From Polytrichum commune (lineage: Eukaryota; Streptophyta; Polytrichopsida; Polytrichales; Polytrichaceae), in NCBI GenBank assembly GCA_950295325.1, contig OX485803.1, positions 66,417,554 through 66,481,553 of the forward strand: a stretch of 64,000 nt of DNA, in the 5' to 3' direction. The notes beneath the pieces are model-generated. The model was not told where the DNA came from. It did no database searches and saw only the letters and a list, made by a program, of their open reading frames with translations. Positions 23,166-48,412 of the stretch are shown here, one piece after another. Every line of letters begins with the position of its first letter. The stretch's first letter is position 1. Position numbers and translations under genes: made by a program.

Positions 23166-24779
23166 CCTTGTCCACCTTTCCAATTCAAGAATGAGAAGAC
23201 TCTGATCCCAAAATCTTGCAATAATTCGAAAGGAAGCACCCTAACCTAAGTTGCAAATCTTATAAGGAGACAAGAAGAATTTCACAAAGCGACCCTTGAA
23301 TCATAGCCAGATACTCGCTGAATATGAAAATCAGAAGAAGAATTGTACAAAACTCAAGGTCACCGGATATGGCCGGACTTCGCTCCAAATGATGCACCAA
23401 CTGTGAATTTCGTCGGCAAAAATGCCTTGAGCCCTCACAGGTTTTGCAAGTGGGGTTTTGTAGGAAGCATGTGCTTCTGATGCAAGTTAAGTTGATGGAA
23501 GCTTGTTGGGAAATCTCTAGACTGCCGACAGTCTTCACACTGTCCTTTGTGGATCGTACCAAGCATTCACCTATATACCAGACCAACACTCACTGATCAC
23601 CACTGATTCATTCACAGACCAGGAATGGCGGAAGCATGAAAAGCTTACTAGATGCCAACTTCAAATCAGGGGGTGATTCAATCATCAATTGCAGATCTCA
23701 TTTACTAACAAACTTCATATTCGTGGGAAACATATCAAACCCTAGTGTCAATAACTGGGAAGCACATGCACCGGAAAAAGTAACGCCCGTAGCTAGGTAC
23801 CGGCATGAACGTGAGCCTGTTAGCCGAATGATGATCACGGTTGTCCGTGATGCGACATAAGGTGTTATGCCTCTTGGGAGGTGGGCTCGGGGAAGCACAT
23901 GCACACATCAATGAGAGGGACGTAAGGCAAAGATGAGCAACAAGGATGAGCAATGAAAGCGAGTGTGAGGAGTGGCGACAAAGCTTCTGGATGGAGCTCA
24001 TAGAGCTTCGGTGCATAGAGTAGAGGAGAGGAGCTAGAGAATGAATCCAAAAATGGCGGGGGGGGGGGGGGTCCATACCCTCAGGGGTTAGCCGGCATCC
24101 ACTGATATCCTTGGGGGGATAATTAATATCCGGGGTCCTAGTTACTTAACCAACCGTTTATCTATTATTTCAAAATGAAGATTGGTTGAAATCTGGATTC
24201 CTCCTGTAGTTAATCGGATGTCCATCTAGTTACCTCCTTCTATAGCCGGTTTTTGATTCATATTAGTTGGTTCATTTGTAGGAACTGCTAGTTCTATCCG
24301 CTCATTGCCCCAACACTTCACTTTTAATTTATGATATGAAATACTATGGTAATTGGATATGCTCTTTTTGTCATAAACTAATCAACTACCCAATTATTGC
24401 AACTAGGAATAATGTGACAAATGTAGTGTTGCATTTTTTTTTATTCTAGAGGTCGGAGGCGGCATTATAATATGTTTTTTTAATGTTTAAAAATAAATAA
24501 ATCATTGAAGACATCAATCCGTGAGGTCCTTTATGGAAAATCATTGTCGAAAACATTCCCCTCTTCTAAGATTGGTTCTTCGAGCTCTTCTCCACCCAAG
24601 TATTGATCCAAGAATGAAGACATTGTGAATGCAAACCACCATTCACAACTTGTCTGGTGTGCCATGTGGTGCGTTATGTATTCCAGTATTTGTCATTTTT
24701 TGTGGCAACACTCAAGGCTCAGACATTGCCATTGAGTTTGACTGTACTAATGCTATATGGTAGTATGGAAGAGAAGGAT
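23166..24779. other. intergenic DNA, no gene supported
   Basis: No family is recognised. A G-run of 13-14 bases lies near 24058-24071. The base composition changes sharply to A/C-rich just after the right edge, where the LINE begins. Confidence 0.5.
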
Positions 24780-24951
24780 GGAGAGAGGCAGAGCTCTCCG
24801 AACGCTGCCTCAACAACAGACAGACAAGAATACCCCAAAGCTCAAGCTTCTGCCAAGAGCGAAGCCGAAGTCATAGACACAATATGAGCGCCCTCCGAAA
24901 CCTGATCGTCGACCCGCACAGATCCATGTATACATCCAGCGCAGAACGAGC

Positions 24952-26640
24952 TTGAACCACAGACACCAAGAAGACCCAGGAGCTGCCGAAGGTGCAGCAC
25001 CCCAAGGAGCGAGACATGCGACAGACAATATCCGGCCGAAGAAACACAGAAGCAGCCACCGAAAAGGAGCTGCCCAGACAGCGCACTCACAGAAGCTAGC
25101 CCCGGAGACCGAACAGCTCCCCCTCGACGCCGGAGATAGGCAACAGTGCAAACCGCAGCGAAGGAAGGATCCCAGCGCAACCACAACAAAACACCGAAGA
25201 TGCACAAAAGGAAGAGACAACTCAGATCTAGATCTAGAAGTCGAAAAAAGCGGGAGAAGAACTACATCAACATACACCAACAACTCTAGGGTTTTACCCT
25301 TTCACATATTATGGGTGCTAATAAGCACCATCTTCACACACCACAATGCTCAACCAACAAAGATCACCTCCATAACCTATCTACCATGCTACCACCCACC
25401 AAAGCTACCACCAACAATCTACCCATTAAGATGTTGCTACCCAAAACATACCAATGCACACTCACCCACACTACCCTCAATAATCTACCCACCAAACTAC
25501 CTCTCCCACTCAATGCCACCACTCATCCAATACTCAACAAGTCAATACCCCTCCAAAAGGCCATCTCCAAGATCGGAAAATACTCCACACTCGTTCATAC
25601 CGCCACCATCACCCACACACACCAAAACCACACACACAATGGTTAGTAAAACTACTTGCACCTACCATACACTCACTCCCACCAAAAACCACCAAAAAAC
25701 AAGAAACAAACTATCTATAAACTTACCTCAAAATCAAAAGTTGCATCGGAGCTCCAAGAACCTCCGCATTAAGGTAGTCCAACACTCCCCTTGTCAGAAC
25801 ATTGCTAAACACCTCACAAGATCCACACAAATAGCCATCACACCCACACACCCACCACACCCAAACCTAAAATCCCACCACCCAACAAAAAACCCGCCAC
25901 ACACAACACCTGCAACACTCCAATCTAAGCCAAAACACACCCCACTAATGCACACTAAAGCTGGAAACACAAATCACAACCTGCCTCAAACCCAGATTGC
26001 CGAATCCCTCCAAGAAAAGCCCAAAAAACAACTCATATGCCCCAAAACCACACACCGCCGCCCACCCACAAAGCCCCACCCTCACACTCAAATACCCTCC
26101 CCTCCCACACACTCCATCAACCATCTCTCCCATACTTCATCAATAACCACCATGTTCACCAACACAGACACCCACAAGCCCACCGCAGATCAGATTGTAC
26201 TCGAACCAGCGACCAGGACGAGAGAGAGCGCCGGAACCAGAATGCAGAGAACTATGGGGCAGCAGCAGATCTCTCAAGGCCGGACGGAGAAGAGCAACAA
26301 CAAGCCCAGCCGAACCAGCACCGCATGAGGTGGCCGGAGAATCAACACAGAGTCGGGAGGAAGGACCAGCAGAGAGGCTGGAGGAAGGGGAGGGGTCGAG
26401 ACGGGCGGGCCAGGCGCACAAGGAGGAGAAGACAACGAGGGGGCCGAGACTAGAAGCGGCAACGGCTCTGGCTTCTTCGGCAACGGAGTAAAGAGCGGGA
26501 CCAGGGAAGCGAACGGGAGCGAGAACAACGAAGGGAGGAAGACCAGGAGCGGGACCCGGCGAAGAGCTTTGTTAGAAAGCTACAGTGAAGACGAAGACGA
26601 GAGAGCCACCAATGAACAACAAGCCAACCCATGCATCAAT
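24952..26640 (+). other. LINE 5' region, open in ORF1 frame
   Basis: This stretch stays open in the same frame as ORF1 except for one TGA at 26326-26328. It divides into a GC-rich start, an A/C-rich middle rich in Thr, Pro, His and Lys, and a G/A-rich end that would encode Gly/Arg/Glu-rich peptide. T-poor sequence yields few stops by chance, so coding is uncertain. It may be a leader or an N-terminal extension of ORF1. Confidence 0.4.
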
Positions 26641-28575
26641 ATGAAGGAGATTGCCCCTCCTTCACAAGATTATGATATCGACATGCAATTAGTGGATATC
26701 TCCCCCGAGCACGGCGGGAGCTCCCTTCAACTTTCTACATCAAGAGACGAGTATGCGGCCACTCCCAATCAAGCCGTCATACCATCATCACGCTTAGAAG
26801 CCATCAATCTTGCCGATAGGACCCCCCCAACATCCATGAACAAGGACAACACCACCGACACTCAAAGCGCCAAGAGAAGGAAGAGTGAGATGGGCACACA
26901 CACATTCAACTCCGGCACTAGTAAGCAACCAATCACCCGCAACAAAGTAGCAATTCCAAGCATCGACATAGTGGCACACATGTGGCTCGGTTTCCCCATC
27001 CATGAGACCATGGCATTGCATAGAGGAACCGAGATCATAAGGGAAACCCGCACCAATGAGGAGTTTGCCATGATCGGGACCCCCTCAAGAGAGATCCTCG
27101 AATTCCGCACCCTTCGAAGAGCATTCCCACACGTCCCTCAAGCATACTACCCGAGCGAGAGACCGGATGCGGTCCCGGGGCACCACCTCCACTTCACCCA
27201 AGTTCCAAGACTAGAAAAGATCGACCCAACCACCGGCCTCTCCGAGGGGTTCCACATCACCATCCGCTTCGACCATGGTTTCAAGAGCATTAGCCGACAT
27301 GAGGCGAAGAAAGTATGCTTAGAACGGCTTCAACAAATGGACATCCCACTTGGTAACACATACTCCAACCCTCTTGACATAGGAACCAATGCCGTTACTA
27401 AGAATTGGGCGGGTTTCATAAAAATGCATTTATTACACCCCAAGAGAGATGGACTAACATTCTTACATAACAATAGGGCATTTGTCATGGAAATGGAGGA
27501 TGGAAAGAGAGTAATAGGCAAGGTAGAGAAAGGGTATGAATTAGTCACCAAGGCTAGCAATCTACGTCTACACATCAAAGGAGAAACCCTCCGACATGAA
27601 CATGCATTCACCATCTTTGAAGCATTAGTACATGAGAACTACTACATAGGCAAGCAACATGAGTTTATGGGACTTACCAAACCAGAGGTAGATAAAAACT
27701 ATACTTTTCTTACACTCACTACAGAAGAGGCTAGGGACAACGTGCTCAAAGATGGAATCATCTTCAATCAAGAGAAGCTCCAAGTTAGCGTCACACGTGA
27801 TCGCGGCACCGGCAACCCATCGGAGCTACGCATTAGCACCACGCTCGTCGCCAATAATCTCCCACAACGAGAGTCCCAAACCACTATCTCGAAGGTCATC
27901 AAACAAATATTCGGAGCGGACAACATAGTTGGCATTGGCTTCGGCAACAACACCCAAAATGACAAGCAAGCGGGTTGGTGTCATATCCAATGTCTCAACG
28001 CCGCGGTCTACACGGAATGGCTTCACAAATCGGTCTACATACTCGGCCGGCGCATAGATTTCATACCTCATCGCGGGAGCATAGACGGCACGGACCCTAA
28101 CAAGACGTCGATTCGCCTAGCCCAAGTACCCGTACGTGAGGCGATAGCGGATAAAATACAAGCCATGAGCAATGCCACCAACTCCAACCCGCCCCTCACC
28201 GAAAAACACCTTACCAAAACCATGAAGGAATTTGAAGACAAGTTGGATGAAAAATTTGGTACGCTAATCACCACCATCAACAACCACACGGATCGCCGAT
28301 TCGAAGCAACTACGGCCATGATCACACACCACACCGCCAACCTTCAAGCGCTCTTTGATACGATCGCCCACGAATTTCAACAATCCAACCTCCGAATGCA
28401 AGGCTTGGTGAATGGCCTCTCCGCCGCCGCACCGGAAATCCTACAAAGAACCGCTTTACCCTCGATACCACAAGGTCTCCACGCGAACACCCCACCACTC
28501 CCCCTACAAGCCCCCCCGGGCTTCCACACTAACGAACAAATGCATCACCAAGGACCTAACGCATTTAATGGTTAG
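26641..28575 (+). CDS. LINE ORF1 protein, RRM-like
   Basis: Uninterrupted frame; the first ATG gives MKEIAPPSQDYDIDMQLVD. The open frame extends upstream without an ATG, so a longer product is possible. The central part has a mixed fold (FHITIRFDHGFKSISRHEAK; KNWAGFIKMHLLHPKRDGL). About residues 400-480 look like an RRM: TTLVANNLPQRESQTTISKV, VGIGFGNN and GRRIDFIPH. The C-terminal quarter is helical and Gln-rich (KEFEDKLDEKFGTLITTIN), a probable coiled coil. ORF1 proteins of this type bind the element's RNA and oligomerise. The stop overlaps the ORF2 ATG (ATGGTTAG, 28568-28575), suited to termination-reinitiation. Confidence 0.8.
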   Translation: MKEIAPPSQDYDIDMQLVDISPEHGGSSLQLSTSRDEYAATPNQAVIPSSRLEAINLADRTPPTSMNKDNTTDTQSAKRRKSEMGTHTFNSGTSKQPITRNKVAIPSIDIVAHMWLGFPIHETMALHRGTEIIRETRTNEEFAMIGTPSREILEFRTLRRAFPHVPQAYYPSERPDAVPGHHLHFTQVPRLEKIDPTTGLSEGFHITIRFDHGFKSISRHEAKKVCLERLQQMDIPLGNTYSNPLDIGTNAVTKNWAGFIKMHLLHPKRDGLTFLHNNRAFVMEMEDGKRVIGKVEKGYELVTKASNLRLHIKGETLRHEHAFTIFEALVHENYYIGKQHEFMGLTKPEVDKNYTFLTLTTEEARDNVLKDGIIFNQEKLQVSVTRDRGTGNPSELRISTTLVANNLPQRESQTTISKVIKQIFGADNIVGIGFGNNTQNDKQAGWCHIQCLNAAVYTEWLHKSVYILGRRIDFIPHRGSIDGTDPNKTSIRLAQVPVREAIADKIQAMSNATNSNPPLTEKHLTKTMKEFEDKLDEKFGTLITTINNHTDRRFEATTAMITHHTANLQALFDTIAHEFQQSNLRMQGLVNGLSAAAPEILQRTALPSIPQGLHANTPPLPLQAPPGFHTNEQMHHQGPNAFNG

Positions 28576-30937
28576 TGACCACCTAGGACATCACAAATGG
28601 TCTCTTTTTCTTACATATTGTATTACTTTTTTCTTATATAATAAAGAGCTCACAATAATGTTGGGTAAACTTACCCCATACATAGTCATCCACAAAGTCC
28701 CCCCCACCGATAGACATACATGTATCCCACTCATTACACTTCTTTCTTTAATAACATACATACACACTAACCCCCCAAGTCCACACCATATAACATACCA
28801 CATCACCTACATGAATAGCACACACATAATATACTCATGGATGTTACTCATACACCTATTATGTACCTCCCTCCTACATATAAATAAAGGATACACACTT
28901 ATGTCCAAAATAGCCACACTAGGAGTAAAATCTCCCACATACACGCCCAAATACAAAACTACACCCTCTACCAACCAAGCATACACTATAATAATTGCAC
29001 TTCTCATCATGACAACATACGTACACACCAACCTCCTAACATCACAAAATATAATCCACACAATCACATATACCCCCCACACAACATATATGACCCATAC
29101 ATCTACCACCACTTCCTCACACCACAACTATACCCATACACACAATATAACAAACACCGCACAAACCATAATACCACCAAAATCCCCCCCACCACACACG
29201 CTAATAAACAACATCAACAACATAGGCAATATTTGTCACATAACACACACACATCTTAAAACCCCAAAAACCAAAAACATACAATATTACACATGGAACA
29301 ACTCCACACTCATTCTTCTATGTGGAGATATACAACTTAACCCGGGCCCACTATCACACATATGTACATACACTACATATGAACAAATACACAACCTATA
29401 CACAAATCACAACAACACAACCCACACAATCACCCCCATTAATATAATGATACATATAGGCAACATCTACTACATAACACACACACACCACAAAAAACCA
29501 ATAATTAAAATCATAACATACTACACTTGGAACAACTCTACACTCATACTCTTACACAGAGACATTGAACTAAACCCGGGGCCGCTTTCAACCATCCTCA
29601 AAAACCTCCCCAAAGAATACACACAAAGAATTTACATAATAATCACCATGATCATTCTCTCATGCACGTTCACTCACCTCACCATCCTAACCCCACACAC
29701 CACTTCACTAAAAGCATTTTATGGATACCACACATACCACCCATACCATAAAGCTACAACCAGCCTCCCATATAATCACCCCAACCACACATATAACACC
29801 CATAACACCACCCAACCCATCCCACTCAACCAACCCACACTCCAAACACCAATTATAATCTTCATAACACATATAAGCACCATTCGTCACACAACCCACA
29901 CCCACCTCAAACATCCAAAAACTAAAGTTACACACTACTATACATGGAACAACTCCATAATCATATTACTAGGAGGAGACATATACACAAACCCGGGCCC
30001 ACTTTCCCACACTCTAAACACTCTCCAACATTCACACACACAAAGACAAAAACAATCCCTCATGACTAACACAATTATGTTCAAAATACTCTATAAACTC
30101 CTAAAAGAAAAATTTAAACCTCACCCAAACCACCACATTTCAAATTCATACACACCACCAAATTCCACCCCCCTTCACACGAACCAATATAAACCAATCA
30201 CGCAAAAATCCAACCAAAAATCACAATTAAACATAACAATACAATACCATACTCAACTACATTTACTCATTTTACAATGCGGTGACATCCACCCTAACCC
30301 AGGACCTATGCCTGACCTACTAAAAACACACCCCCCTGACCACAAGAGAAGACAAACAACATATTTCCTACCAAGTACGATCAAATTCCACCCAGAATAT
30401 CAACACTTGGCCGAAACATTCAAACCCCTTTTCCAAAACACACATCCGCTACATACACAAATAATACACTCCCTCCCATACTTGTATAATCACATACAAC
30501 AATATAATCACCATCCTCCCCCAAAGGTCATCTATGCAATAGTCATAACCATTAGTCCCTCCACTCTAACATGTAACACACTCCTACACCACCAACCAAT
30601 ACAAGAATGGACATCTCAACTACTAGAAAGAATGTCAAGATTGCAAAACCCACCAGAAAGACGTATAGATACCCCACACCCATATACACAATTTTGTCAT
30701 ATATATAAAGACACTATCACCCCTCCCAACACAATACACAAACAATTATATGATTATATACATCTAGACCATAACTCCGTTAATATAGAAAAATTACAAG
30801 AAAAATTCCCATATCTACCACGACAACTACTAATGGAGGCACTAAAATATAACGAACCTATAAATGAATACACACGCCCCAACCCCCCCCATTACTTATC
30901 ATTCATCACCCTCGCCCAACCCGGTCCCGCTAACTAG
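28568..30937 (+). CDS. LINE ORF2 N-terminal region with four 2A-like modules
   Basis: A 789-codon frame starting MVSDHLGHHKWSLFLTY at an ATG that overlaps the ORF1 stop by 8 bp. The first third has several hydrophobic segments (CIPLITLLSLITYIHTN; WMLLIHLLCTSLLHI; TIIIALLIMTTYVHTN), two of which look like repeats of each other. Then follow modules of the form THxHxKxPxxKxxxYYTWNN then STLILLxxDIxxNPGPLS, three strongly alike and a fourth diverged. Known 2A peptides have D(V/I)ExNPGP and make ribosomes skip the Gly-Pro bond. The frame runs out just after a run of eight Cs near 30890, where the endonuclease opens in the next frame. Confidence 0.75.
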   Translation: MVSDHLGHHKWSLFLTYCITFFLYNKELTIMLGKLTPYIVIHKVPPTDRHTCIPLITLLSLITYIHTNPPSPHHITYHITYMNSTHIIYSWMLLIHLLCTSLLHINKGYTLMSKIATLGVKSPTYTPKYKTTPSTNQAYTIIIALLIMTTYVHTNLLTSQNIIHTITYTPHTTYMTHTSTTTSSHHNYTHTHNITNTAQTIIPPKSPPPHTLINNINNIGNICHITHTHLKTPKTKNIQYYTWNNSTLILLCGDIQLNPGPLSHICTYTTYEQIHNLYTNHNNTTHTITPINIMIHIGNIYYITHTHHKKPIIKIITYYTWNNSTLILLHRDIELNPGPLSTILKNLPKEYTQRIYIIITMIILSCTFTHLTILTPHTTSLKAFYGYHTYHPYHKATTSLPYNHPNHTYNTHNTTQPIPLNQPTLQTPIIIFITHISTIRHTTHTHLKHPKTKVTHYYTWNNSIIILLGGDIYTNPGPLSHTLNTLQHSHTQRQKQSLMTNTIMFKILYKLLKEKFKPHPNHHISNSYTPPNSTPLHTNQYKPITQKSNQKSQLNITIQYHTQLHLLILQCGDIHPNPGPMPDLLKTHPPDHKRRQTTYFLPSTIKFHPEYQHLAETFKPLFQNTHPLHTQIIHSLPYLYNHIQQYNHHPPPKVIYAIVITISPSTLTCNTLLHHQPIQEWTSQLLERMSRLQNPPERRIDTPHPYTQFCHIYKDTITPPNTIHKQLYDYIHLDHNSVNIEKLQEKFPYLPRQLLMEALKYNEPINEYTRPNPPHYLSFITLAQPGPAN
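29324..29350 (+). other. 2A-like motif 1 (GDIQLNPGP)
   Basis: Preceded by YYTWNNSTLILLC and followed by LS. It matches 2A except that the Glu of DxE is Gln. Confidence 0.8.
29558..29584 (+). other. 2A-like motif 2 (RDIELNPGP)
   Basis: Full match to D(V/I)ExNPGP, preceded by YYTWNNSTLILLH and followed by LS. Confidence 0.85.
29975..30001 (+). other. 2A-like motif 3 (GDIYTNPGP)
   Basis: Preceded by YYTWNNSIIILLG and followed by LS. The Glu position is Tyr. Confidence 0.8.
30281..30307 (+). other. 2A-like motif 4 (GDIHPNPGP)
   Basis: Preceded by YHTQLHLLILQC, a diverged form of the module. The Glu position is His. It is the copy nearest the endonuclease. Confidence 0.75.
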
Positions 30938-33900
30938 TCAAGAATCATACACCATAACTTGGAATGCCTCCTCACTAAACACTACCATGTCATGTCTACA
31001 AGAACTAATCACGGACCCCCAACAACCCCCATCAATCATCACTATTCAAGAAACCAAGCTTTCCGCCACTAAATCCACAAAATATATATAACACCTATTC
31101 CCTCAATACAAACTTTTCTTTAACAACACACACAACATCACAAGAATCACACGCCAACGAATGACATATAGAGGATATAGAGGAGGACTACTACTACTAA
31201 TACACAACAAACATGCATTCCCAGGCAATCTTTCCAAAATTCCCACCCCCGCAAACATATCCCCATTCCTTCAAGTAACGCGCATAGCAAACCAACCTTT
31301 ACAACAATGGCTCTTAATTAATTTATATATGCCCTCGCATGAGGAGGACCTACCTCTCATCCCCATCATACAAACTAACATCACTCATCAAATAAATACA
31401 CACCCTAATCACGCATACATCCTATGTGGAGATTTTAATAGAGACGTTGCTTTGATTGGAAGACAAAACGACCAACAAACCACACCGCCACAACCGGAAG
31501 ATTATCTTTGGCGATCCTTTACAACCAACCTAGAACTAACATACATCCCGACAAACACAACATTTTCAAGGCAAAGAAGACATAATTACACACAAAATAG
31601 CCTAATAGATGGATTTTACATCAAAACCCCACATAACCACCAATTCACCTCAATTACAAATCAAACAACACACCTAAACTCCGATCATCTACCTATACAA
31701 CTCCGAATACCCCCAAACACACTTATAGCAAGAGAACCAATCACAACCCTTGATCCACCACCTAGGATACTCAACCCTATACCCAAGGAAAACCTAGAAA
31801 CCTTCCACACCAAATTCTTCAAGGACAACTCAAACCAAATCGACGAGCTCATACAATTGTTAGAAAATAACCACTTGACAAATGAACAATGGCAACTAGC
31901 ATGTCAATCACTAAGATCCCTTACCGACAACATTACAACCACCGTCCTAGAAACATGTAGTGCCCCACCCATTCCCACGCTATCAAACAAAATTGCTAAG
32001 CAAGGAGGCTACCTTCCAAAGAAACTCCAAAAAGAATGGAAAATACATTTATCTACCTACCATCTTATTAGAAAAACAATATATATCATAAAAAACAACC
32101 CAAATTAGCGAATTCACCCCATTATCACACAAGAAATTAACAACCATACCTCTGTCACTATACCCCCACCTCCACATCCTTCCCACCCATACGAAACATG
32201 GTTAGCCAACTTAGCCAACATCGCCAAAGAAGTTAAAAACAAAGGCCGCAAAATAACAACAAACTACACAACCCAACAAATTAAAAAAACCATATGCAAA
32301 TACCGACAATTATATGACAAAAGTCCCAAGAAAATTAATAGAAAAGTCTTCAAGAATATTGACACCCCCCCTCTAGACTGCCTAATAGATCGATTCAATA
32401 ATATCCTTACAAGCCCCACAGACATTGCATAAAAAATACATGTGCAACAATCCATAAGCAATAGACCAACCGTCCCAACATGTCATTATCAACCCGATCA
32501 CCCACAACAATGCCTATGTGGAGTTAGACAATATCCGTGGCACGACCTCAACGGATTTACTATAGAAAAGAGAGGCGAAGCCTTAACTCCCTTACACACA
32601 TACCTAAACCAAGAAACATACGATATATGTCTTAAAAACCTTACCAACGGGAAAATGCCGGGATCCGATCAAATTCCTAACACCATACTAAAAAATATGC
32701 CGCCAAGATTCCACAAGCTTCTACTATTATTTTTTACCCACTGTTATAAACAAAAACAAATACCTGAAGCTTGGAAAACGAGCCTTACGATACTCTTATA
32801 CAAAAAAGACAACCCCCATAATCTCACCAACCATCGGCCTATTGCACTTGCCAACACTATTTACAAACTATTTACTAGCACGCTCACTAGTATACTCTCC
32901 TCATACGGGGAAAAACACCAAATTCTACATGATAGCCAAGAGGGCTTTAGAGCTGAAAGATGCACCGCCCGACAACTTCAAACCCTCATCGCCGCATTAG
33001 AAGATGCACGACTCACTAACCAAGACATCTACATTCTATACATAGACTTCAAAAATGCCTTTGGTTCTATAGACCATGCTAGACTCCTCGCCATTATGAA
33101 AGACCTCGGTTATCCGCAAGATGTCGTAGCACTAGTAGGAAATATCTATTCACAATCAACTACCACATTTATTGGGGAATACTTCGATAAAACACTACCC
33201 ATACCCATACAAAGGGGAACCATACAAGGAGATACGCTAAGCCCTTACCTCTTCATCATCTTTCTCGAACCATTACTTAGATGGCTACAACGCGGACCCC
33301 ACGGATACACCTTTAAAACCTCTAATACAAAATTAAGCTCCGCGGCCTACGCGGACGACCTAGCGGTAATATCCAACAATACGACATCCATCCAACAACA
33401 ATTGAACAAGCTAGATAGATATTGCGAATGGGCCGGAATGGACCTCAGCATCCCGAAATGCGCAATCACAGGATGCCCAAATAAATCCAAACTAAATGCA
33501 CAAGCCTTTAAAACACATTTAACGGCCATCAATATTAACTTCCGAAACCAACCAATACCGATACTAAGCCAACACGAACCATATGTTTACCTCGGAATCA
33601 ATTTAGTTCTATCACTATAATGGAAAATACAAACGCACATCACAATAGCCAAACTAATCAAACAATGTAAACTCCTAACCACATGCCCAACCACTATGAA
33701 GCAAAAAATACAAATGGTTGACACAGTCATAAGAGCCGGCATAGCCTATAGCTTTTATGCCGTCCCATACTCACTTCCCGCTATTAAAAAACTAGATAAA
33801 AGAATAATTGCCCTACACAAAAATATATGTGGCCTCCCGAAATGCCTATCAAATGCCGTTACACAACTTCCACAAAATATGTTCAGCACTGAAGCTTTCT

Positions 33901-36900
33901 CACTAAAAAACGCCTATATAACATGTATCGGAGAACAACTCATAAATGCCCTCAACGACCAAGGAAGACTTGGAAGAATATATAATGGATTAACCAAACA
34001 TATCCTTGCCAAACATGGCGGATCACTCCACTTACCACGAATAACCCCACATGATTGCATGAGATCACCAATTACTAGAACATTATACCTACTCAAAAAA
34101 ACTAGTGACACTCACCTTAGAAGTACACTTGCAAAATTCCCCCTTCACCCTACGCCATTAGAGACACAATGGATGAGTCAAACACACCATATACCCACAC
34201 TAACTCCCACCACTTCCCTCAAATACTTACATAAATTAATTTTACACAACATAACCGAACTAAAACATATAACGCACCCCAATTGCACACACCTCATGAC
34301 AAATGATGAATTTAAGTACTATTATGCCCCACCCACTAAACTAGTTAAAACCGCCCTAGAACACGCGCGTAAGATATTTTGTAAACCCCCTTGTCACAAC
34401 CAATGCCCAAATACCTGCCGAACACATACGACACCCAATACTCTCAAAGACGCCTACAAAATACAAAATCATCATATAAACACAAGCCTAAGTAGACATA
34501 ACATACACCCCATGCCACCCCCACTACCAGAATATCCAAAACCCCCCTTACACATCCAACAAAACCACATACAATTCCCAATACAATCTATAATAAACGA
34601 CCACCCTCACACATACAAAGACAAAGACAAAATCACAAAACACTACACATCCTACCTTTGCCAATGGATACTTCCTAACGAAACCAAATACCATAAATGG
34701 CTCCCACAACGAAACTTGTTCCCTTGGAACAACCAAAACACTATAAATCATAACATACTACTCTTAACACAATACTACACCCAAAAACAACACCAACACT
34801 TCACCAACATTCTCCAAATAAACTTTAGTGAAGCACAAATGAGAGACACAAGATATGTCCGCCCACCACAAGACATACCCCTATGCCACATTCATATGAA
34901 TGAATGCAACCCAGATAATGACATTGAATGCACACAACACACCATTCAAAGCCAATATGGCGCATCACACATCTATGATAATGACGGACGCCACCTAATT
35001 ACCATTCCCGAACTAAGACTACAATGGCTATGGGAACAATACCAAAATGCATTAAACAAACCACACAACTTAGAACCCCCCATACAATACTTTGAAAAAG
35101 AAGTGGCATGGTTGTATCAAAGATACAAATATAGAATGCCCAAAAACGACCCCCTCAAACTCTCACAATACACCCTCCCAAATGCCATCATAGAAAACAT
35201 CATTGACTCCTTCCACATCACCCATTCCTACTTTTCATCACCAATCACATATCTTACTACATTGAAACAATTCTCCTCCCCATTTTCTAGGGACAAGGTA
35301 TTCGGGTCAATAGGCACATCATTCCAACATAAATGGGCAGGGGTGGGATATGCCCACCCGCACACAGAAAAAGACACTCAACAAGCCCTACATTGGGCTA
35401 GACTTGCCGCCAAACATAACCCAGACACAATCACAATACTCATAACAACTGGCCCAAACTGGTACCACAACCTCAACCCCCATGAAGGCCCTTTCCCAGA
35501 TTCTCACGTTATCTCACATTTCAAAGCAGATACCATTGCATATGATGAACCCACAATACCCCCGGAATTACGAACTAACCCACGAACAGAAAATCATGAC
35601 ATCCGCATATTATGTATACACCACAAACACACGTCCCCCGGATCATGTGAATATGCGAATCGTATGGACACTATTAGTACTACCCTCCAAATACCCACAT
35701 CATTTCACACACCGGCACCGCCTACACCTATAAACACCTTAGTAAATAGAAACAAGAAATGGTCCCAACTTATATACCCGCCCCCCCATCCACTTACAAA
35801 CCAAACTTCTAACACTCCCATATACACGAATCAAGACATATGCCTACCCCTCAAATACCACCCACAATTTTGCTATTACACGGATGGATCATTCATGCCA
35901 CCCAAAGAAATAACCCGAGGGCATTGGAGAAGAGAAAAAGCAGGGTATGGTATATATAACCCTTTCAAAAACCTCAAAATCACAGAAAGACTACCCGGAC
36001 TCCAAAATATACTTAGGGCAGAACTTATGGCTATACACCACACCCTCCACCTCCTCACTACCACATACCGGAATGAACCGGCACATATCTTTACAGACTG
36101 TCTCAATGTCTTATACCTCCTGAACACGCAAACTAAACACCCAACACTACACAATAGCCACCCGGATAAAAATATACTAGAATCCATAGTTAAAATGTTG
36201 CAATCCCGCACACAAACCACCATACTACACAAAGTCAAAGCCCACACAAACATTCAAGGTAACGAACAAGCCGATAAATTAGCAAAATTAGGTTGTGAAT
36301 TAGAACATAGAGATGCTATAGCCACACATGAGCATGCGCACCCCACGCCATACTACCTCCAAAAAGATTGGTGGCATTCAATGCAAGAAACACCAGACAA
36401 AGGCCCCATCCGACACCTTGGCAAATACATCATCAAACACGATAAAAAACACAACCTATCCATTCTAGCAACCCAAACACATCAATTACATAAATGGCTT
36501 GATAACAAAGATATCGACAAAACATTATCAAATGACTTTTGGACCAACCCGGCTATCTCAGACAAGCAAAAAACGTGCTTAGTAAAATTCCGAACCGGAC
36601 AATACATGGGACAAGCTAGAAAACAACTCTTTTTTGGTAGAATTGCATACCCATCCCATACATGTAACATTTGCAACTCATTAGAAGCGGATACATGGCT
36701 ACATATACTCCTTAAGTGCAAACAACAACACATCCACGCACTAATTACAAAAAGACATAACAAAGCGGTATGGGAAATACGCAAACTTCTTGTCTCAAAT
36801 AAAATAACAAGACACTACATACTCATGAACGCAGGTACATATAATGAACTACCCCAAGACAACACAATACCAACATGGTTACTACCCTGCACATGTGGTA

Positions 36901-37337
36901 CCCAAAGATGTCATTGTAACGCTAGACTCAAACCCGACATTCTATGCATTATAGGGCACCCTTACAATTCCCCACCACCAGAAGCACCCACACCAGAAAT
37001 TACAGTTCAATTTATAGAATTCACATACTGTAACGACAGATTCTCCACTGAAACCATAAATCAAAAAATCACAAAATATCAACCACTCATAAATAATATC
37101 ATCGCAAAGGGTTGGAACGTAGCCCCACTTATTGTATTAGCATCTGGTGCTCGAGCCACAACTCACATCCCCTCAATGAACGAACTTGAAACAAAGCTTA
37201 AACTCCCCACATCACAAATTAGGAACACATTCAAACAACTTAACATAATTGCCATACAATATGCACACTCAATATTAATCCACAAGAGACGAATAGAAAA
37301 TAGACAACCCATCACAGACCTACAAAATCATAACTAA
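30938..37337 (+). pseudogene. LINE ORF2: endonuclease, reverse transcriptase, RNase H, CCHC finger
   Basis: One frame runs through the whole stretch with in-frame stops at 31089, 32106, 32429 and 33618. AP endonuclease (about 30945-31720): TWNAS, IQETKL, LCGDFN and NSDHLP, all catalytic motifs present. Reverse transcriptase (about 32620-33620): RPIALANTIYKL, FRAERCTARQ, YIDFKNAFGSIDH, RGTIQGDTLSPYLF and AYADDLAVIS. A linker of about 700 residues includes a Cys cluster (FCKPPCHNQCPNTC). RNase H (about 35870-36300): YYTDGSF, RAELMAIHHT, IFTDCLN and NEQADKLAK, giving the DEDD set. Finger: CNICN...HILLKC, then PCTCGTQRCHC near the C-terminus. The enzymes copy the element RNA at a nicked target. 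Confidence 0.9.
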
Positions 37338-37720
37338 AATTAAAGAGGGGTAGTGGTCAGACCACTAGTTATTAAGTTACCACCTATAGCTCAGAAAGGC
37401 GGGGAGTAGCCGGCTGGTTGGCATAACTTTCCTGCCTATGATTAACTCACTTGCAGCACCAAGTCAAAGTGTATTGCACTAACACGCTCAGACGGATTCA
37501 ACGCGAATCGAACCCGGACCGTATTAATACAACACGCACGTCCTTATCCAACCAACCTTGGAACCATGACTTGGCGACCAACAACACAATCAACCATCAT
37601 TTATACTCAAACAAATACGCACGCTTCTCGTCTCAAACAAAGTAGCAAAACCCACACAATTCTAAATTAAAACCCATGCATCCTACACACCACCCTCCCC
37701 CCCCCCCCCCCCCCGGTTCA
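37338..37720 (+). other. LINE 3' region with palindrome, tRNA-like boxes and poly-C
   Basis: Perfect palindrome TAGTGGTCAGACCACTA at 37351-37367. On the minus strand GGGTTCGATTC (near 37507) and TTGGATAAGGACGTGCG (near 37545) resemble Pol III B and A boxes of a tRNA about 40 bases apart. An 18-base C run at 37697-37714 is followed by CCGGTTCAACCGG. Where the LINE ends is uncertain. Confidence 0.4.
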
Positions 37721-37842
37721 ACCGGTTAAAACATTAGTTACTAACATAGTGTCTACTCCCTGCAAAGGGTGAAGTAGTATTACACCCAACGCCGCTACCC
37801 TGGGGTACGGCCACGGTTGTCCTACGAACATACACTTTATTC

Positions 37843-37886
37843 ACTCCGGTCCCTAGTAGGGACCGGAGTTCTTCTTCTTCTTCTAG
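37843..37886 (+). mobile_element. candidate Helitron 3' end
   Basis: The palindrome ACTCCGGTCCCTA-G-TAGGGACCGGAGT (13-bp arms) is followed after 13 bases of TTC repeats by CTAG and then T. Hairpin, short spacer, CTRR and insertion before T is the Helitron 3' signature. No 5' TC end was recognised upstream. Confidence 0.3.
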
Positions 37887-39859
37887 TATGGAAGAAATGG
37901 CGAAGTTGAGCGTGTTTATATTTGTCCTACTGGCCTGGACTGACCGTACTCGTAATCCTAGAGTAGAAAGGTTATCTATGTTTTGAGTGAAACTAAACTT
38001 ATGCATGATTTTTTGCTAGAATGAGATTATAAATTTGCACTTCTATGGCCAACACCTTCAATAGAAATGACAAAAAAATATCTTAGATTTGGATTGCATC
38101 TCTTGTTGTAACACATTTTAGTTGCATGCACATTGTGTTGCTTGTAAAAATTACACATCTAGAGGGATTATTTGATCAAGCAGCTTCTATCACCTTTAAA
38201 AACGGTTGTCCCAGGCTCACTCAAAGGTAAGCCCCTATACCATTTTGGCCATAACTTGAGATTTAGGCTTTATATTAGACCTGGGAAATCAAAACGATGT
38301 GCAAAATGGCTTGTGTATTGTACACACTTGGATGGTGGACCTGATCCAGGTGGACAATCCTCCATTCTTAGCTAGTGATAATGTAACTAAAAATGTATAG
38401 AATAAATGTAGGATTTTCCACCCAGATCTCAGAAGCCTAACAGGATGCCTGCCCACTTTCTTGATTTTCTCAATTTATCAATTCATTGATCTCAAAGTTC
38501 CATCAACTAAAAAGTATGGAGATCTTCAAGTTTGGGCCCTCATCTACTTCCTCTCCAAGACTTTTTGAGTTAAAGTGTCAGATTCTCTTCAACAATGTTT
38601 GGTTGTTCCAACACCTTCTTAATGAAGGTTTTCATGTGAGAATTTCTTGATAAATCCATTTTGGTTCAGAAAGTTTAGATATCACTAGTATCAAGCCAAA
38701 TGTGAAGTTAAGAATGATATGAACCAATATAGTTCTCATCTAATCTTCTAGGTCTTTGTAATGTCTTTTTTGCTTCAAAGAACTTGTCTTGCTTGACAAC
38801 ATTATTGTCTACCTCAAATTTTCTCCATAGAATGATTCAACATATGTATAATGGCATGTTCTTCAACTAATCCATTGTTATCAACATGACTTAAAAGTTG
38901 GAACAGTTAGAACCTTATGTGTTAGGGGCTTGTTAGTGCTGAACATAGTATCACATCAGGCTACAACACCTCGGTATCCAAGTTCTAGCATGCTCTCTGC
39001 TTGCTATTTCAACCCTATAACCAAGATAATGCATATTATGTGGAATTTGATTTTGCATATCGCCAAAGTTTGAAGCTACAACTTTCAGTATGAGTGCATT
39101 ATTCCTTGAATTTTGGCACAACACTTTCTTGTGTAAAATTCCCTTAAGTTAGAAAGAAGTTACATGCTTGTTCTCCTTCATTTCATTTTTGCAATACCTC
39201 AGAAGTACACCCACCATGCAATAGATTACTCGGTCCTCAGAAGTCAAACTTTCTAGAATCTCTTCAGGTTTGGCATCTGTGGATTGGAATTCAATGTTGG
39301 GCTTCTTGGTTTTTACAGTTTAGATGTACAAATTCGATAGCAAGCATCGGCTTTAATTATGTTGTTTTGGAATCAATGTAGAAATCAAAATATATAAAGC
39401 ATTAATCAGTTCCAGTTTTTGAACCAGATAGAGCTCGATGGTAATATCTTGAAATGCCAAAAGTCCACACGTACTGTGTAAGGTTAAAATTGCAAATATT
39501 CATAAATATTTGACAGAAAGATTTCTTTGATGAAATTATGTCTCAAGTCTCAAAAATGACCTTTATGTATAAAATAGGTCAGACGATATACCCAAAAAAA
39601 TTGCAATCCTGTAAAGAAATGGTTAGCCTCAAAATACCAGAATTTGTATAGTTTTGCTTCATGGACTGGATTGTATTTGCACTCTAATTTCAACTTAGTT
39701 CTTGAATCCTAACCAGATTACCTCATTACAAGAATAACACTATAATCTCAAGAAGAGTTACTTAAATGTCCAAGAAATGATTAAAGATGAAGATATAACA
39801 ACAAAATTTCATTTTTTTGACTTGCTGTAATATGCGTCCTTCCAGATGAGAATGGAACC
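37887..39859. other. intergenic DNA downstream of B3 gene 1
   Basis: AT-rich, short open frames only, no motifs. It is expected to contain the 3' untranslated region of the minus-strand B3 gene near its right edge. Confidence 0.5.
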
Positions 39860-42527
39860 TCAATTTGGGGATGAGCCTCTATCAACAAGTTGAACAATCC
39901 AAAATCCTGGCGCTGTTAGAGAAAAGACCACCACATCTGCCAGCCGAAGTTCATATTTCACCGAAAAAGCCCGCCATCCAGTCGAGAAAGATATTTCGAA
40001 TGCTCCATACGGCTTTAGCATTTTCCCAATGCTCTTCACCTCCGTCACTTGACCATCCGGTCCCTGAAGGCGGTTTGTGAACCCCAGAACATAATTTCCA
40101 TACCTCCGTGAGAATTCAGCAGGAAAACTCTGCCACAAAACCAATTCAGAAGATCAACATATTAATGTCAACTAGAATCAGAAATGTGCATATTAACAGA
40201 GACATTTGCAGTTTGCATATGATGATAAGAAAATTTGAACTGATCTTGCCTAGGCCAGTAGATCAGTTATTCTTAGTCTCTCAAAAACTCTTGATTCGGT
40301 GGGGAGTTTCGCACCACTTTTTGATAATTTATAATGTTTAAAGAGCATTCAAGTGGTGTCGGAACCAGGCCTCATTTTAGTGAATTGAAGTGGACATGTC
40401 TGACTTTGGCCCACTTGAGACAGTTATATAAAACTTAAATTCTTGTCAAGGTTTTCAGAGCACCATTTTAGGTGCCATCAAAAGTTTTTCATGAGATTTT
40501 ATTTATTATAGCAGTCTCTTTGCCAAGTCAAACGCCTCCCTTTCATTTCACCAAATTTGGGGGCTCCAACACCAACACACCTTAAACATTATAAATTGTC
40601 AAAAGTGGGGCAAATCTTCCTATCAAAACATCATGAGTTTTTGGAAGACTTTAAGGATAACTCATGAGTTTAAATTCAGTAGAGTTGAAACATTGGTTTG
40701 AAATTCCTACCAGTATCACGCTTCTTCCTGATTGTACATTCACGTGTTGTATTTTCTTCACAAAATGTGGACACTGAAAACCTGTAAGAAGGCTATCGAC
40801 TTTGTGTTTCAAATGCGGACTGAAAATATCCTTGGTGTTTTCGGGATACACAACGTCGTTGGGCAGCATGTATTTTGAAAGCCTGCCAGGCCTCTTAATA
40901 ATCTGGACCGGAGAAGTTTTTGTGCTGCTATATATGATGTCATCTGCATCGCCATTCGATTCCACAACTTTCGCACCAACATCCAATCCCTCATTCACTG
41001 GGGAATCAACCCGTTTCTTTTTAGGGGTTCCGTTATGGCAGAAGATGTACACAACAAACTTCGACATCGCCACAACGCAAAAGATTAACTCGTCACCCAC
41101 CTCCACTCCATTTTCCATCACAAACTCCCGCCACCCTCGTCCAAATAAAACCTTTTGTCGAGTATGTTCTCTTGAAATTCTCACTTTCACAGCGCATGCT
41201 CGTGGGTGCTCCCGTACCTTGAGTAACACAATCTCTTGAAACTTGTCTCCATGCTCCTTGATAAACTGGGCAGGAATATCCTGCAAAATTTAATTTAAAG
41301 TGTCCTTACCTATTATTTCCTTCATGTTGGGGTTGTCAGACACAACTTGAGCTCGAGCACAAGCTCAAGCTTGCAAGTTTCCTGGGCCGAAACCTAAAAA
41401 GATTTGCGCCCTCACATGTGCCTAAGATGGTGGAGCTTTGAAATTTTGGATCGCTTTTAAAGTTCAACCCCAATTTTGAACTTGTAGAACTTTCAAATCC
41501 GATGACTACAAGTTCAAATTCGGGCTTAAACTTTAGATTCAATCCAAAATTGGATCGAGGAACCAAAGCTCCACCAATTTAGCTAGGCACCTGCAAGGGT
41601 CCAAATTTCCTTACCCTTCGCCTACGAAACTTGAGCTCAAGCTACATTGTGTGTAGGTACACATGAGAAGAAAGGATAGAACTTTCTAACTTCTTAGAGT
41701 ATAGTACTTATATTTCTGTACTAACTGGTCGATTCAGGAGGTGATTTTTTTAATCTCATTCTAACTGGTAGTAAAGCCCAAGACTCCAGTGATCAATCAA
41801 GTATTGACTTTCGTCTGTTACATAACTGACAAGAAATTCCAGAGAATGTCAAATAAATGGGATAAAGGTATGTATGTCAATCTTCTTAATTTGGACACCT
41901 ATGTTTGAGTGGTATATGGTAATTTAAGTTGGTAGTTAAGAATGGGCACCAAAAACGTATGTGACCTTTACGATGAGATTGGACTACGCGCTCAAAATAT
42001 AGTCAGACACCATTCTAGGTTAATCGTTAACAAAAAAAAGAGAGAAAAGGAATCTTCACTTCTATCTCCTATGAGATTTGCATCTCGAAAATCGATTCTC
42101 AAGCTTGAAGGACCTCCCAATCTACATAATGCGCACTTGCTAATCGGATGAGAGAATTCTTTGATCCGATATATTGGCCGAATTCTGTCTGTGGAGTTGG
42201 AATTCCCTACGAACTAATATAAAACCTTCAATGAGCATGGACGGGCAGAGATCAGAGTGAATTGTTTGAGAGTTTATTCATAATTTGGAAGTTAGTTGAG
42301 TTTTACCGGTCGGTCGAGCAGTATGATAATCCTGGCGGGGACAGTAAGAAACTCACCAACTTCCACCCGCCAGATTTGTGCTCAACCATCCAGCGGGTCA
42401 TTAGTCGCCGAAAATGTGGAACGCTCAATTTCTCCAGTTGGTGCAACATTTGATGAACATTGAAGTTGGACCAACTGGACGTTGTTGCCTTCTTCACATC
42501 CTCGACGTCTTTACTTTCCAAGTCCAT
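39860..42527 (-). CDS. two-domain B3 (REM-like) DNA-binding protein, copy 1
   Basis: Three exons: 42527-42357, 41280-40711 and 40129-39860, with GT-AG ends and phase-0 junctions, giving 336 residues. The N-terminus MDLESKDVEDVKKATTSS leads into the first B3 strand, LEKLSVPHFRRLM. After the first intron comes DIPAQFIKEHGDKFQEIVLL, GRGWREFVMENGVEVGDELI and FVVYIF. The second B3 begins FQCPHFVKKIQHVNVQSG and, after the second intron, continues SFPAEFSRRYGNYVLGF, STGWRAFSVKYELRLADVVV and FWIVQLVD. Both introns fall at the same place in the B3 fold, just before the (I/F)PxxF strand. B3 domains bind DNA in the nucleus; REM targets are mostly unknown. It faces away from the SRA gene at 46.9 kb. Confidence 0.85.
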
Positions 42528-45500: not shown

Positions 45501-46936
45501 CTATTGTCAAAAAATTCTCTAAAACTTAGGGGGGCCCTTTTATACATCGACCTTTACTTCATAATACTTAATAGCCTTTTCAAAGGTACACACTAGAGAA
45601 AGTTAATACCTCTCCCTTATGTATACTATGCATGCTAATGCCTTAATTACACTCATGTCCCTTCTTACACTCATGTTCCTTTGTACATGGTATGAAGAGC
45701 CCACCCCCCGGGCTTTGGCCTTTCATAGTAGCAGTGTACGTAAGAAGGATGCAATAACACTTTTTGCAAAGCACCAACTTTGGCCCAACACAATGGCTAA
45801 TTGGGGGTCTATTTGCTTAACAAGGCAGTGTAAGAAGTGATCCACAAAAGGGGGAAAACACTTTCATTTGATAAAGGAGCCTCACCTGCAATAAGGATGA
45901 TTTTGTGGCGAATCTCACCTTGCAATTCAACATCACTAAACCCCCTTAATGGAGAGTTGAAAGCTCTTCCCTTACGACGACTTTGTGAATTTCTAAAGGT
46001 TGCATCTGAATTTATTATTTTAATGAATTATTTTTGTAAAATTTGTAAAGATTTTCTAGTTAATTAATTATTATAAAAAATCCAAGCTATTTAACCTGCC
46101 TGAAATATAATTTTTTCTTTCTTAAAATGTCACTTTAAGGCCTCAATACCTTGCTCATAAAACCAAAATACAAAACTCTGAATTATTGCTAGGGTTTGAT
46201 GACGACTGGCCAGCCGGTTAATATACTTGAATGTTACAATGTAGACTTTAATAATGATGTATTAATATGTCTTTATGGAACAAAGAGCTCCTTGAGTTTA
46301 ATCTTGAGGTCAGTTCCTTCCAGTCAACTTGTCAAGCAAGTAACTCGCATTCGATCGATGCCAAGCACTAGAAATTATGACATGAGCTAATCAATTGACA
46401 CCGACAATGGAAGTAACGTTCCTGGTAAATTACATAAAATGTCGATCGATGACGACTAGCACTACTGATCACAACATTTAAATCACACTTCAATGTGGCT
46501 GCCGAAGACAATGCCGGCGATGCTCAATGCTCATAGCCATAGCCCGCGTTGGGCATCCTCAATCCTGGACCTGACGATAAACTCATGTTAAATGTTGAAT
46601 TAATCAAAGTGATCATGTTCCATAAATTATGATATGACTTATATGTGAGTGGTGTCTTTGTAGATGGTAATTTACTTGTAAATGAAGCCATGAGCGCCAC
46701 GATCGATGTGTATATGTTTCTGATCGCGCAACCAAAAAGCTATCCCCTAGTGCACACAATTTCACACTGCTTTAGATTCAGTGACAGAGGTTGCTAGACT
46801 TGCACAAGTCAGTGCGGAGGTCCAAGTTTAAAATTGTACTTTCACGAGAGCTGCGACAAATTCTCATCACAGTTACTTCGGAGTTGGTGTGAATCTCTAC
46901 ACTGATTGGCTGCCTCGAAACGATCGAGAATCAGCT
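42528..46936. promoter_or_regulatory. divergent spacer between B3 copy 1 and SRA copy 1, with insertions
   Basis: About 4.4 kb, more than three times the equivalent spacer of the second pair, and enlarged at least in part by the TIR element at 44.1-44.6 kb. Near 46186 GCTAGGGTTTGATGACGACT resembles 53300 in the second spacer, so part of the ancestral shared promoter region survives. A minus-strand open stretch at about 46010-45835 (GFSDVELQGEIRHKIILIAG) is not recognised. Confidence 0.45.
44145..44571. mobile_element. TIR element, family A copy 2
   Basis: The left end ACACTACATATTGTATTTGA and the right end, with complement ATACTAAATATATTATTTAG then TGTCATCAATT, are inverted relatives. Internal blocks TACAAGGAATGACAAATAAT and GGTGTTGGTGACAA are shared with copies at 11.4 and 57.2 kb. 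It is a non-autonomous element of about 425 bp. Confidence 0.65.
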
Positions 46937-48412
46937 ATGGCTCCAGTTGCAGAGACAAAACTACTCGGAAAACGGGTCAAGGATGGAGATCCGGGTGAGT
47001 GCTTGCAAAATCACGCTCAAACCATGTCGACCATGAGCTCTCACTTGAACGACACCAGCTCCGAGTCTGCAGAGTACTATCATCACAAGAAGCAGTACTG
47101 CGAGGTGGCACAACTTTATAAGGAGGAGCCGAAGATGGAAGGCGGGCTGGTCGGCGGGAAGAATGCATTGAGGAAATGTAATTACAGTGGTGCAGATCAC
47201 GATTTATACTATGGAGCATCTGATTCCAACCGAATTCACAAAAGAGTGCGTCGGATACTGGTTAAGCTTTCCAGCAGCGACGACGAGGACAGCAGGAACA
47301 AAATCAACGAAGTTAGACACCATCACGAAAATTTACCTAAAACTTCACGCAAGTTGCGTCGCTGGTCGAATCGCATCGCCAAGCTTCCCAGAAAGAATTA
47401 CTCCCCGAACACAACCAGGAGTTCCGAGCATTCAATTGGCCCCGAAGACGACGATGACGACGACCCGGAATTTAGAACTCCAATCGAAGACACGGAAACA
47501 AGTGAGTACAGCTCGGAATTCGAGACGAATTATAATGATCTCCGCATCAGGTCGAGAGTCATCAAGCCTAATGTGACTGTAACGGCTCAGGCTGCCCCTA
47601 TCGTGGAAACCAAAACCATGTCGAGAAATTCTCTTCTGAGGATCCAACAGCAAGTCAAGGAGAGGCTATGCACATTCTCGGCGCTCTACATGAAAGCTTC
47701 GGTGAAGGAAGAGGAGCGGGTTAAGAAATTTCAGCTTAAACCCCAATCATCCTTTAAGTTTCACGGAAGGCCGGACATGAAGGTCCTCCAAATCATGTCG
47801 TCACAGGAAACCTCTAAAAATCTGCCACGGATGATAGGAGAGATCCCGGGAACATGTGTGAACCAATCCTTCATCTCCAAGGTGGAGATGGCCGTCGTGG
47901 GCATGCACAAACGTGTAATGGGAGGCATCGACTTCGTCAGCAAGGTCGGGGAAGGATCATCCTCAAATTCTTATGACAGATTTTTGCCTTTGGCAGTGTG
48001 TGTAGTGTTGGCGGGTCGCTACGATGATGAAACCAATGACCTGGACGAGATTGTGTACGTCGGAGAAGGCGGTAGAGATCCAAGGGGCAGAGTGTACAGG
48101 GACCAGTGGCTGTCAGGAGGAAATTTAGGTCTGCAGAACAGCATGAAACATTCGAAGCCTGTGCGTGTGGTTCGGAAGCGGCTTGGTTGTCGATATCTCT
48201 GTTACGGATCTTACACTTACCTCGGGCTGTACCAGGTCGTGGATTCCACCTACAAGAAAGAGAAATCTGGTTACTTGGTGTTTAGGTTTACGTTAAGAAG
48301 GTTGCCGGGGCAGGCTGCAATTGAACGAATCCCTGCTATTCCCTCCAGTGAATTTTTCAATGAAGTCGATCATTCTGCTTCCTCCAATTCCATCTCCACA
48401 CTGCAGGAGTAA
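46937..48412 (+). CDS. SRA (SAD/YDG) domain protein without SET, copy 1
   Basis: Single-exon frame of 491 residues from MAPVAETKLLGKRVKD. The N-terminal half is charged and probably disordered, with SSDDED, basic RKLRRWSNRIAKL, and an acidic Asp/Glu run near residue 175. Residues about 275-455 form the SRA domain of plant SUVH proteins: GEIPGTCVNQSF, KVEMAVVGMHKR, GGIDFV, VVLAGRYDDETNDLDEIVYV, GEGGRD, GNLGLQNSMKHSKPVRVVRK, YTYLGLYQVVDS and FTLRRLPGQA. In SUVH proteins LPGQ leads on to pre-SET/SET; here the protein ends soon after, so no methyltransferase is present. SRA domains bind methylated cytosine. Its 3' end is repeated downstream. Confidence 0.88.
   Translation: MAPVAETKLLGKRVKDGDPGECLQNHAQTMSTMSSHLNDTSSESAEYYHHKKQYCEVAQLYKEEPKMEGGLVGGKNALRKCNYSGADHDLYYGASDSNRIHKRVRRILVKLSSSDDEDSRNKINEVRHHHENLPKTSRKLRRWSNRIAKLPRKNYSPNTTRSSEHSIGPEDDDDDDPEFRTPIEDTETSEYSSEFETNYNDLRIRSRVIKPNVTVTAQAAPIVETKTMSRNSLLRIQQQVKERLCTFSALYMKASVKEEERVKKFQLKPQSSFKFHGRPDMKVLQIMSSQETSKNLPRMIGEIPGTCVNQSFISKVEMAVVGMHKRVMGGIDFVSKVGEGSSSNSYDRFLPLAVCVVLAGRYDDETNDLDEIVYVGEGGRDPRGRVYRDQWLSGGNLGLQNSMKHSKPVRVVRKRLGCRYLCYGSYTYLGLYQVVDSTYKKEKSGYLVFRFTLRRLPGQAAIERIPAIPSSEFFNEVDHSASSNSISTLQE

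Follow-up and report, generated by a model that had tools for sequence, protein, structure and literature searches.

The window, the whole 64-kb stretch of DNA analysed here, carries on its forward strand a full-length non-LTR retrotransposon (LINE) of 13.1 kb (24773–37883). The 13,111-nt element is bounded by exact 12-bp target-site duplications, TAGTATGGAAGA at 24761–24772 and its match at 37884–37895. Neighbouring ORFs match the families Plant_tran, NAM-associated, B3, SAD_SRA, DUF4283, NIF and DUF7869, from which the plant setting proposed in the first-pass annotation of this DNA is inferred; these families point to a green plant, most likely a land plant, as host. ORFs with B3 and SRA domains alternate at 40651–41286, 46889–48412, 51541–52404 and 54002–55231, and look like the tandem duplication of a gene pair. 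No tRNA was found in the window by a tRNA scan, and no Rfam match in 24700–38000. Strand asymmetry is strong across 24001–38000, with GC skew from -0.11 to -0.57 and AT skew from +0.22 to +0.34 in 2-kb windows.

The element has two ORFs. ORF1 (26641–28575), located by ORF scan, encodes 644 amino acids from its first ATG in a frame open from 26329, and matches no Pfam family at cut-off. ORF2, with its ATG at 28568, overlaps the ORF1 stop codon (TAG, 28573–28575). The N-terminal part of ORF2 (28568–30937) lies in frame 2, which is open from 28412 to 30937, and its codon usage fits that of the enzyme frame of the element (mean log ratio 0.106 vs 0.001 and 0.000 for the other frames). Frames 2 and 3 are both open in a zone at 30864–30934, where the reading leaves the frame of the array and enters that of the enzyme; eight consecutive C lie in this zone at 30883.

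The enzyme part begins in frame 3 with an APE-type endonuclease (30933–32105, in-frame stop at 31089), matching Exo_endo_phos_2 (PF14529; 1.1e-8, 35.3 bits, cut-off 27.4) over 31311–31697 and Exo_endo_phos only weakly on an N-terminal piece (0.037). This match upstream of the reverse transcriptase (RT) bears out the earlier description of a LINE with an AP-type endonuclease. The RT (32442–33617; RVT_1, 3.5e-30) is flanked by in-frame stops at 32106, 32430 and 33618; among solved structures it is closest to R2 (best R2 chain 95.8 bits vs 55.5 for human L1), and in an NCBIfam search it was the only match, below cut-off. A PCIF1_WW-like domain (35055–35432; 2.8e-8, 34 bits, cut-off 31.1) sits between the RT and RNase H. 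PCIF1 is a cap m6A methyltransferase family with NPPF as the usual catalytic motif, and this motif was not seen by eye in the window copy. RNase H (35868–36296; RNase_H, 7.3e-15) has the residues D-E-D-H-D. The following stretch (36663–37019) carries the motifs CCHC, RHN, E, KPD and E in series, a candidate restriction-like endonuclease recognised by motifs only after a consensus from PMC12857005; in its strict published form this consensus is unmatched, and the region has no convincing PDB or Pfam match. Among 40,000 shuffles, the CCHC-RHN part arose once, the RHN-E-KPD part 25 times and the relaxed whole series never. Structures predicted by AF2 for the C-terminus and for ORF1 (pLDDT 38 and 34, respectively) were too poor for fold comparison. 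Part of the sequence coding for the C-terminus of ORF2, 39 nt long (36775–36813), recurs in the 3' UTR (37613–37651) at 82% identity. The element ends with a 27-nt hairpin (37843–37869) and a (TTC)n tail reaching 37883; the hairpin region 37780–37885 has a z of -4.06, and none of 200 shuffles was as stable.

The first-pass annotation spoke of a plant LINE. Instead of an ordinary plant L1, the element appears to be Dualen/RandI-like. Plant L1 elements are reported to have an archaeal-type RNase H in which R replaces H (PMC4640811), whereas the RNase H here keeps the H in KAHTNIQGNEQAD (position by eye). Similarly, (A)n ends are listed for 224 of 233 flowering-plant L1 families, and non-(A)n repeats for 7/7 RTE and 8/8 algal RandI families (PMC3747384, Table 3), and the tail here is (TTC)n in place of poly(A). 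In that table the flowering plants have L1 and RTE only, and the RandI tails do not include (TTC)n. In view of the R2-closer RT, the RNase H with H, the non-A tail, which is the rule for RTE as well as RandI families, and the candidate endonuclease motif series, the element is called Dualen/RandI-like, and not a proven member.

The N-terminal part of ORF2 contains four NPGP sites, starting at 29339, 29573, 29990 and 30296, all in frame 2 according to a frame scan of the window. The corresponding octapeptides, DIQLNPGP, DIELNPGP, DIYTNPGP and DIHPNPGP, thus lie in one frame (28568–30937), and successive sites are 78, 139 and 102 codons apart; a single uninterrupted frame with four 2A-like motifs and spacers of about these lengths in residues had been proposed, and both points hold. 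The region given at the time, 29180–30310, encloses the motifs, but the reading frame of the array starts well upstream, at the ATG 28568, leaving a leader of 260 residues ahead of the first NPGP site. A six-frame scan found one extra NPGP in the window; it lies outside the element, at 46561, and is closely preceded by stops. When the 841-aa ORF was shuffled 20,000 times, one NPGP occurred in 202 shuffles and two in none, so that a chance origin of the four-NPGP frame is excluded. Modules 1–3, but not module 4, match a DNA pattern written for the L-L...D-I-x-x-N-P-G-P core, which had no match in 100 shuffles of the window.

The composition of the strand is extreme, with 6% G and 21% T, and the GC skew in 28001–30000 is -0.54. 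Such an A/C-rich, G/T-poor strand has a lowered stop frequency, and the open frame with its motifs might be a by-product of it that encodes no selected protein. This is extremely improbable, and already contradicted: frame 2 has no stop in 786 codons (28576–30934), for which the chance from composition is 2.5e-16, while the sister frames on the same strand have 38 and 58 stops. The codon usage noted above and the deficit of replacements in the modules, described below, also speak against it.

A motif-blind repeat search placed modules 1–3 in one family with a 165-nt (55-codon) unit. Module 1 (29198–29362) ends with DIQLNPGP (29327–29350), module 2 (29432–29596) with DIELNPGP preceded by Arg (29561–29584), and module 3 (29849–30013) with DIYTNPGP (29978–30001); the second and third copies are 72% and 70% identical to the first. 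Module 4 (30257–30307, LHLLILQCGDIHPNPGP, octapeptide 30284–30307, Met directly after) matches the other modules over only about 17 residues, which are essentially the 2A part. Its leave-one-out score is 50.3 vs 86.0–94.0 for modules 1–3, and the maximum of 5,000 shuffles is 33.5. Judged by these alignments, modules 1–3 are homologous repeats and module 4 is their remote relative. The YYTWNN motif and STLILL-type segment, earlier ascribed to every module, occur in modules 1–3, and module 4 has QYHTQLHLLILQCGD instead.

Comparison of the copies argues for constraint at the amino-acid level. For the pairs 1–2, 1–3 and 2–3, the Nei-Gojobori w over 55 codons is 0.07, 0.20 and 0.35, with dS of 2.8, 1.2 and 1.0 and dN in the range 0.19–0.36; silent sites are near saturation, as these dS values indicate. 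Raw replacements number 21.5, 26.5 and 36.5 vs 26.5, 22.5 and 20.5 silent changes, so the deficit appears per site and not in the raw counts. In 5,000 simulations per module pair, which redistributed the observed substitutions randomly along the same sequence, replacements as few as observed had P of 0.0000, 0.0000 and 0.020 over the 55 codons. In the 26-codon YYTWNN..PLS core, P was 0.0000, 0.0034 and 0.0144, or 0.0000, 0.005 and 0.017 with simulated stops excluded. The upstream half of the repeat gave 0.0058, 0.0078 and 0.20, the last not significant; pair 2–3 is the weakest throughout the full unit and the core (P 0.014–0.020). Modules 1–3 are thus, on sequence grounds, under amino-acid-level constraint, as seen between copies within one element only. 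Free drift of the NPGP residues, the outcome that the first-pass annotation had set against its own reading, is not what the four copies display: the D, I, N, P, G and P codons have 8 third-position changes and no replacement, which is internal evidence from one element. The rough neutral chance of this pattern is 1e-5, for columns picked for being invariant.

The constraint is spread beyond the octapeptide. In successive ten-codon blocks of modules 1–3, nucleotide identity is 0.57–0.60, 0.67–0.73, 0.67–0.70, 0.77–0.87, 0.63–0.73 and 0.43–0.60. The maximum (0.77–0.87) falls on the YTWNNSTLIL block, and the DIxxNPG block (0.63–0.73) is no higher than the two decamers before YTWNN (0.67–0.73). 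Conservation is therefore centred not on the octapeptide but on its lead-in, and ends near NPGPLS. The modules might accordingly be repeats of a protein domain (membrane-associated or RNA-binding, for instance) in which the NPGP end is structural and no skipping takes place. The conserved upstream residues (THTH.K.PK, YYTWNN), where nucleotide identity peaks, and the hydrophobic segments between modules fit such a domain. It is nevertheless an improbable explanation, as identity drops to 0.43–0.60 in the ten codons starting with PLS, the remote module 4 has essentially the 2A part alone in common with the others, and the order L-rich-G-D-I-x-x-N-P-G-P is the known 2A layout (PMC12846837).

The four sites differ in how closely they follow known 2A sequences. 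By eye, the lead-in is L-rich in all four, as are I at p13 and N-P-G-P constant, and G precedes D in three, with R in module 2. LLLLSG-like L-rich upstream motifs accompany D at p12 in 2A sequences described in PMC12846837. The canonical octapeptide (D/G/C/N)(V/I)ExNPGP is exact in module 2 only, and the other three have a single change at p14: Q in site 1, Y in site 3 and H in site 4. The perfect D(V/I)ExNPGP reported earlier is hence present in module 2, which lacks the Gly before Asp preferred by D-type sites and has R at p11. According to PMC12846837, H at p14 is more than 95% active in a natural context and E14Q mutants keep 26% or 56% of activity, while Y at p14 is absent from the active variants listed there. 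These activities were obtained in rabbit reticulocyte lysate, and the foot-and-mouth virus 2A site takes more than 30 residues for full activity (PMC12846837), for which reasons the site-by-site values serve as expectations only. Sites 2 and 4 are likeliest to be efficient. Since every site is off the optimum at a single position (p14 with Q, Y or H instead of E, or p11 with R instead of G), skipping is expected to be partial and unequal.

The same departures could be taken as decay. One site, most likely site 4, by the enzyme, or site 2, may still skip, and the others may be degenerating duplicates that now form ordinary spacer. Every site misses one residue favoured in PMC12846837, and similar hydrophobic stretches lie upstream of the array that could be older decayed copies. 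These hydrophobic, Thr-rich stretches (28733–28822 and 28994–29083, 87 codons apart) resemble each other with a score of 60 (150 shuffles: 95% at 52, maximum 61), and are possibly an older duplication. However, they fail the 2A profile: fifth and sixth decayed modules, sought at 28697 and 28958, scored -0.5 and -2.0 vs a shuffled median maximum of 5.75 and were rejected, and the decay reading gains no support from them. Replacements are moreover under-represented in modules 1–3, and none of the four copies has a replacement at D, I, N, P, G or P. A single surviving site among decaying ones is consequently unlikely, though it is the foremost of the alternatives.

The present copy is dead. The enzyme frame contains four in-frame stops, at 31089, 32106, 32430 and 33618, and the array frame (2) does not continue into the enzyme frame (3), the change falling within 30864–30934; with these stops and this frame change the enzyme cannot be made from this copy. 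A programmed frameshift in the two-frame zone is a possible way of joining the array to the enzyme, but with four stops in the same copy a lesion or an assembly error is the simpler account.

Other copies were sought in several sequence sets. The 64-kb window gave two tblastn matches of no note (E 0.23 and 0.014) and no blastn match outside the element. A profile match at 57106 (E 0.0054) has the sequence DIHPNPN, within only 23 residues bounded by stops, and was taken as chance. Scans of viral contigs revealed no relative, and no second copy of the array was found in the window, the viral contigs or the genome contigs searched. A first scan of genome contigs gave no relative. The DNA-pattern scan of genome contigs identified one distant relative, the 5,085-bp contig PUOC01000032.1, which encodes a eukaryotic-type LINE (tblastn 5e-84) and is filed under a Clostridiales MAG, a bacterial label that most likely reflects contamination. 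Its 1,624-aa open frame includes an RT with 42% identity across the alignment, followed at residues 1446–1583 by a PCIF1_WW match (9.4e-6, 25.8 bits) below the Pfam cut-off of 31.1. The contig begins downstream of the endonuclease, so that the array region is absent from it and it is uninformative on 2A.

On balance, the four modules probably form a tandem 2A/StopGo array, with putative skipping, in the ORF2 N-terminal part of a Dualen/RandI-like LINE. This explanation is favoured because the motif density is far above chance, replacements are in deficit, and what module 4 has in common with the rest is essentially the 2A part. Points against a StopGo array are that only one of the four octapeptides is canonical, and that one with R at p11, that the octapeptide is not where conservation peaks, that the copy is dead, with its array out of frame with the enzyme, and that the searches described above yielded no second copy of the array. 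In an intact element, ribosomes just ending ORF1 would start ORF2 at ATG 28568. At each module the L-rich nascent stretch and GDIxxNPG would stall the ribosome, the chain would be released after Gly, and synthesis would resume with Pro. The predicted products are a leader of 260 aa that includes several hydrophobic segments, three peptides (78, 139 and 102 aa) and the enzyme, beginning with Pro-Met-Pro about 210 residues ahead of the endonuclease. With partial and unequal skipping, fused and free products would occur side by side in graded amounts. The last site alone would separate the enzyme from the leader, and the earlier sites would mainly yield separate small hydrophobic or His/Thr-rich peptides.

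Several known systems resemble parts of this arrangement. Dualen/RandI LINEs were reportedly described from green algae by Kojima and Fujiwara in 2005. These elements carry a cysteine protease, for which the element here has no Pfam match, although a divergent one could be missed, and their RT takes a position between the RLE and APE groups. An APE, RNase H and a non-poly(A) tail are common to both, as may be a restriction-like endonuclease, here a candidate by motif only (PMC4640811, PMC3636483, PMC3747384, PMC8226300). The element differs from them in its 2A array, its host outside the algae and the lack of a visible protease, and perhaps in its PCIF1-like domain.

Among APE-type LINEs, 2A sequences are reported to occur in the clades L1Tc/Ingi of trypanosomes and Rex1, CR1, L2 and Crack of animals (Odon, 2013). 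They have the L-rich GD(V/I)xxNPGP form. A 2A-like sequence inside the protein of an APE-type LINE is the shared feature; here there are four in tandem with spacers, in a plant host, with RNase H and an R2-like RT, and the array follows a separate ORF1. The first-pass annotation knew of no plant LINE with this layout; likewise, none with 2A was among the matches listed in a literature search of titles and abstract openings, which does not establish absence. StopGo serves as a tool in plants, and 2A functions in plant cells (PMC4981915). Plant viruses have almost no StopGo, the six cases being judged likely host misclassification, and its cellular use is called rare (PMC12846837). The hydrophobic 2A signal sequences at the N-terminus of sea-urchin NLR proteins are a cellular example, naturally partial in skipping, but they are single and belong to a cellular gene (PMC4981915).

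There is also a likeness in layout with Paavivirinae picornaviruses, such as aaliviruses, in which serial 2A-NPGP sites precede the replication enzymes with spacers of about 50–150 aa (PMC11512398). The likeness is one of layout: these are RNA viruses with capsid proteins upstream, and the spacers of multi-2A picornaviruses matched related viruses only (PMC11512398). If skipping occurs, this plant LINE with its four-site array would be a case of natural StopGo use in plants, and dual-endonuclease LINEs would be suggested in plants beyond green algae. The array would also supply non-canonical sites (Y14, Q14, R11) for probing what plant ribosomes accept. More broadly, and somewhat short of probable, a dual-endonuclease LINE lineage known from green algae may persist in a land plant with a working natural tandem StopGo polyprotein, in which four graded 2A sites would yield accessory peptides and a metered enzyme from one ORF, a mobile-element parallel to the multi-2A picornaviruses.
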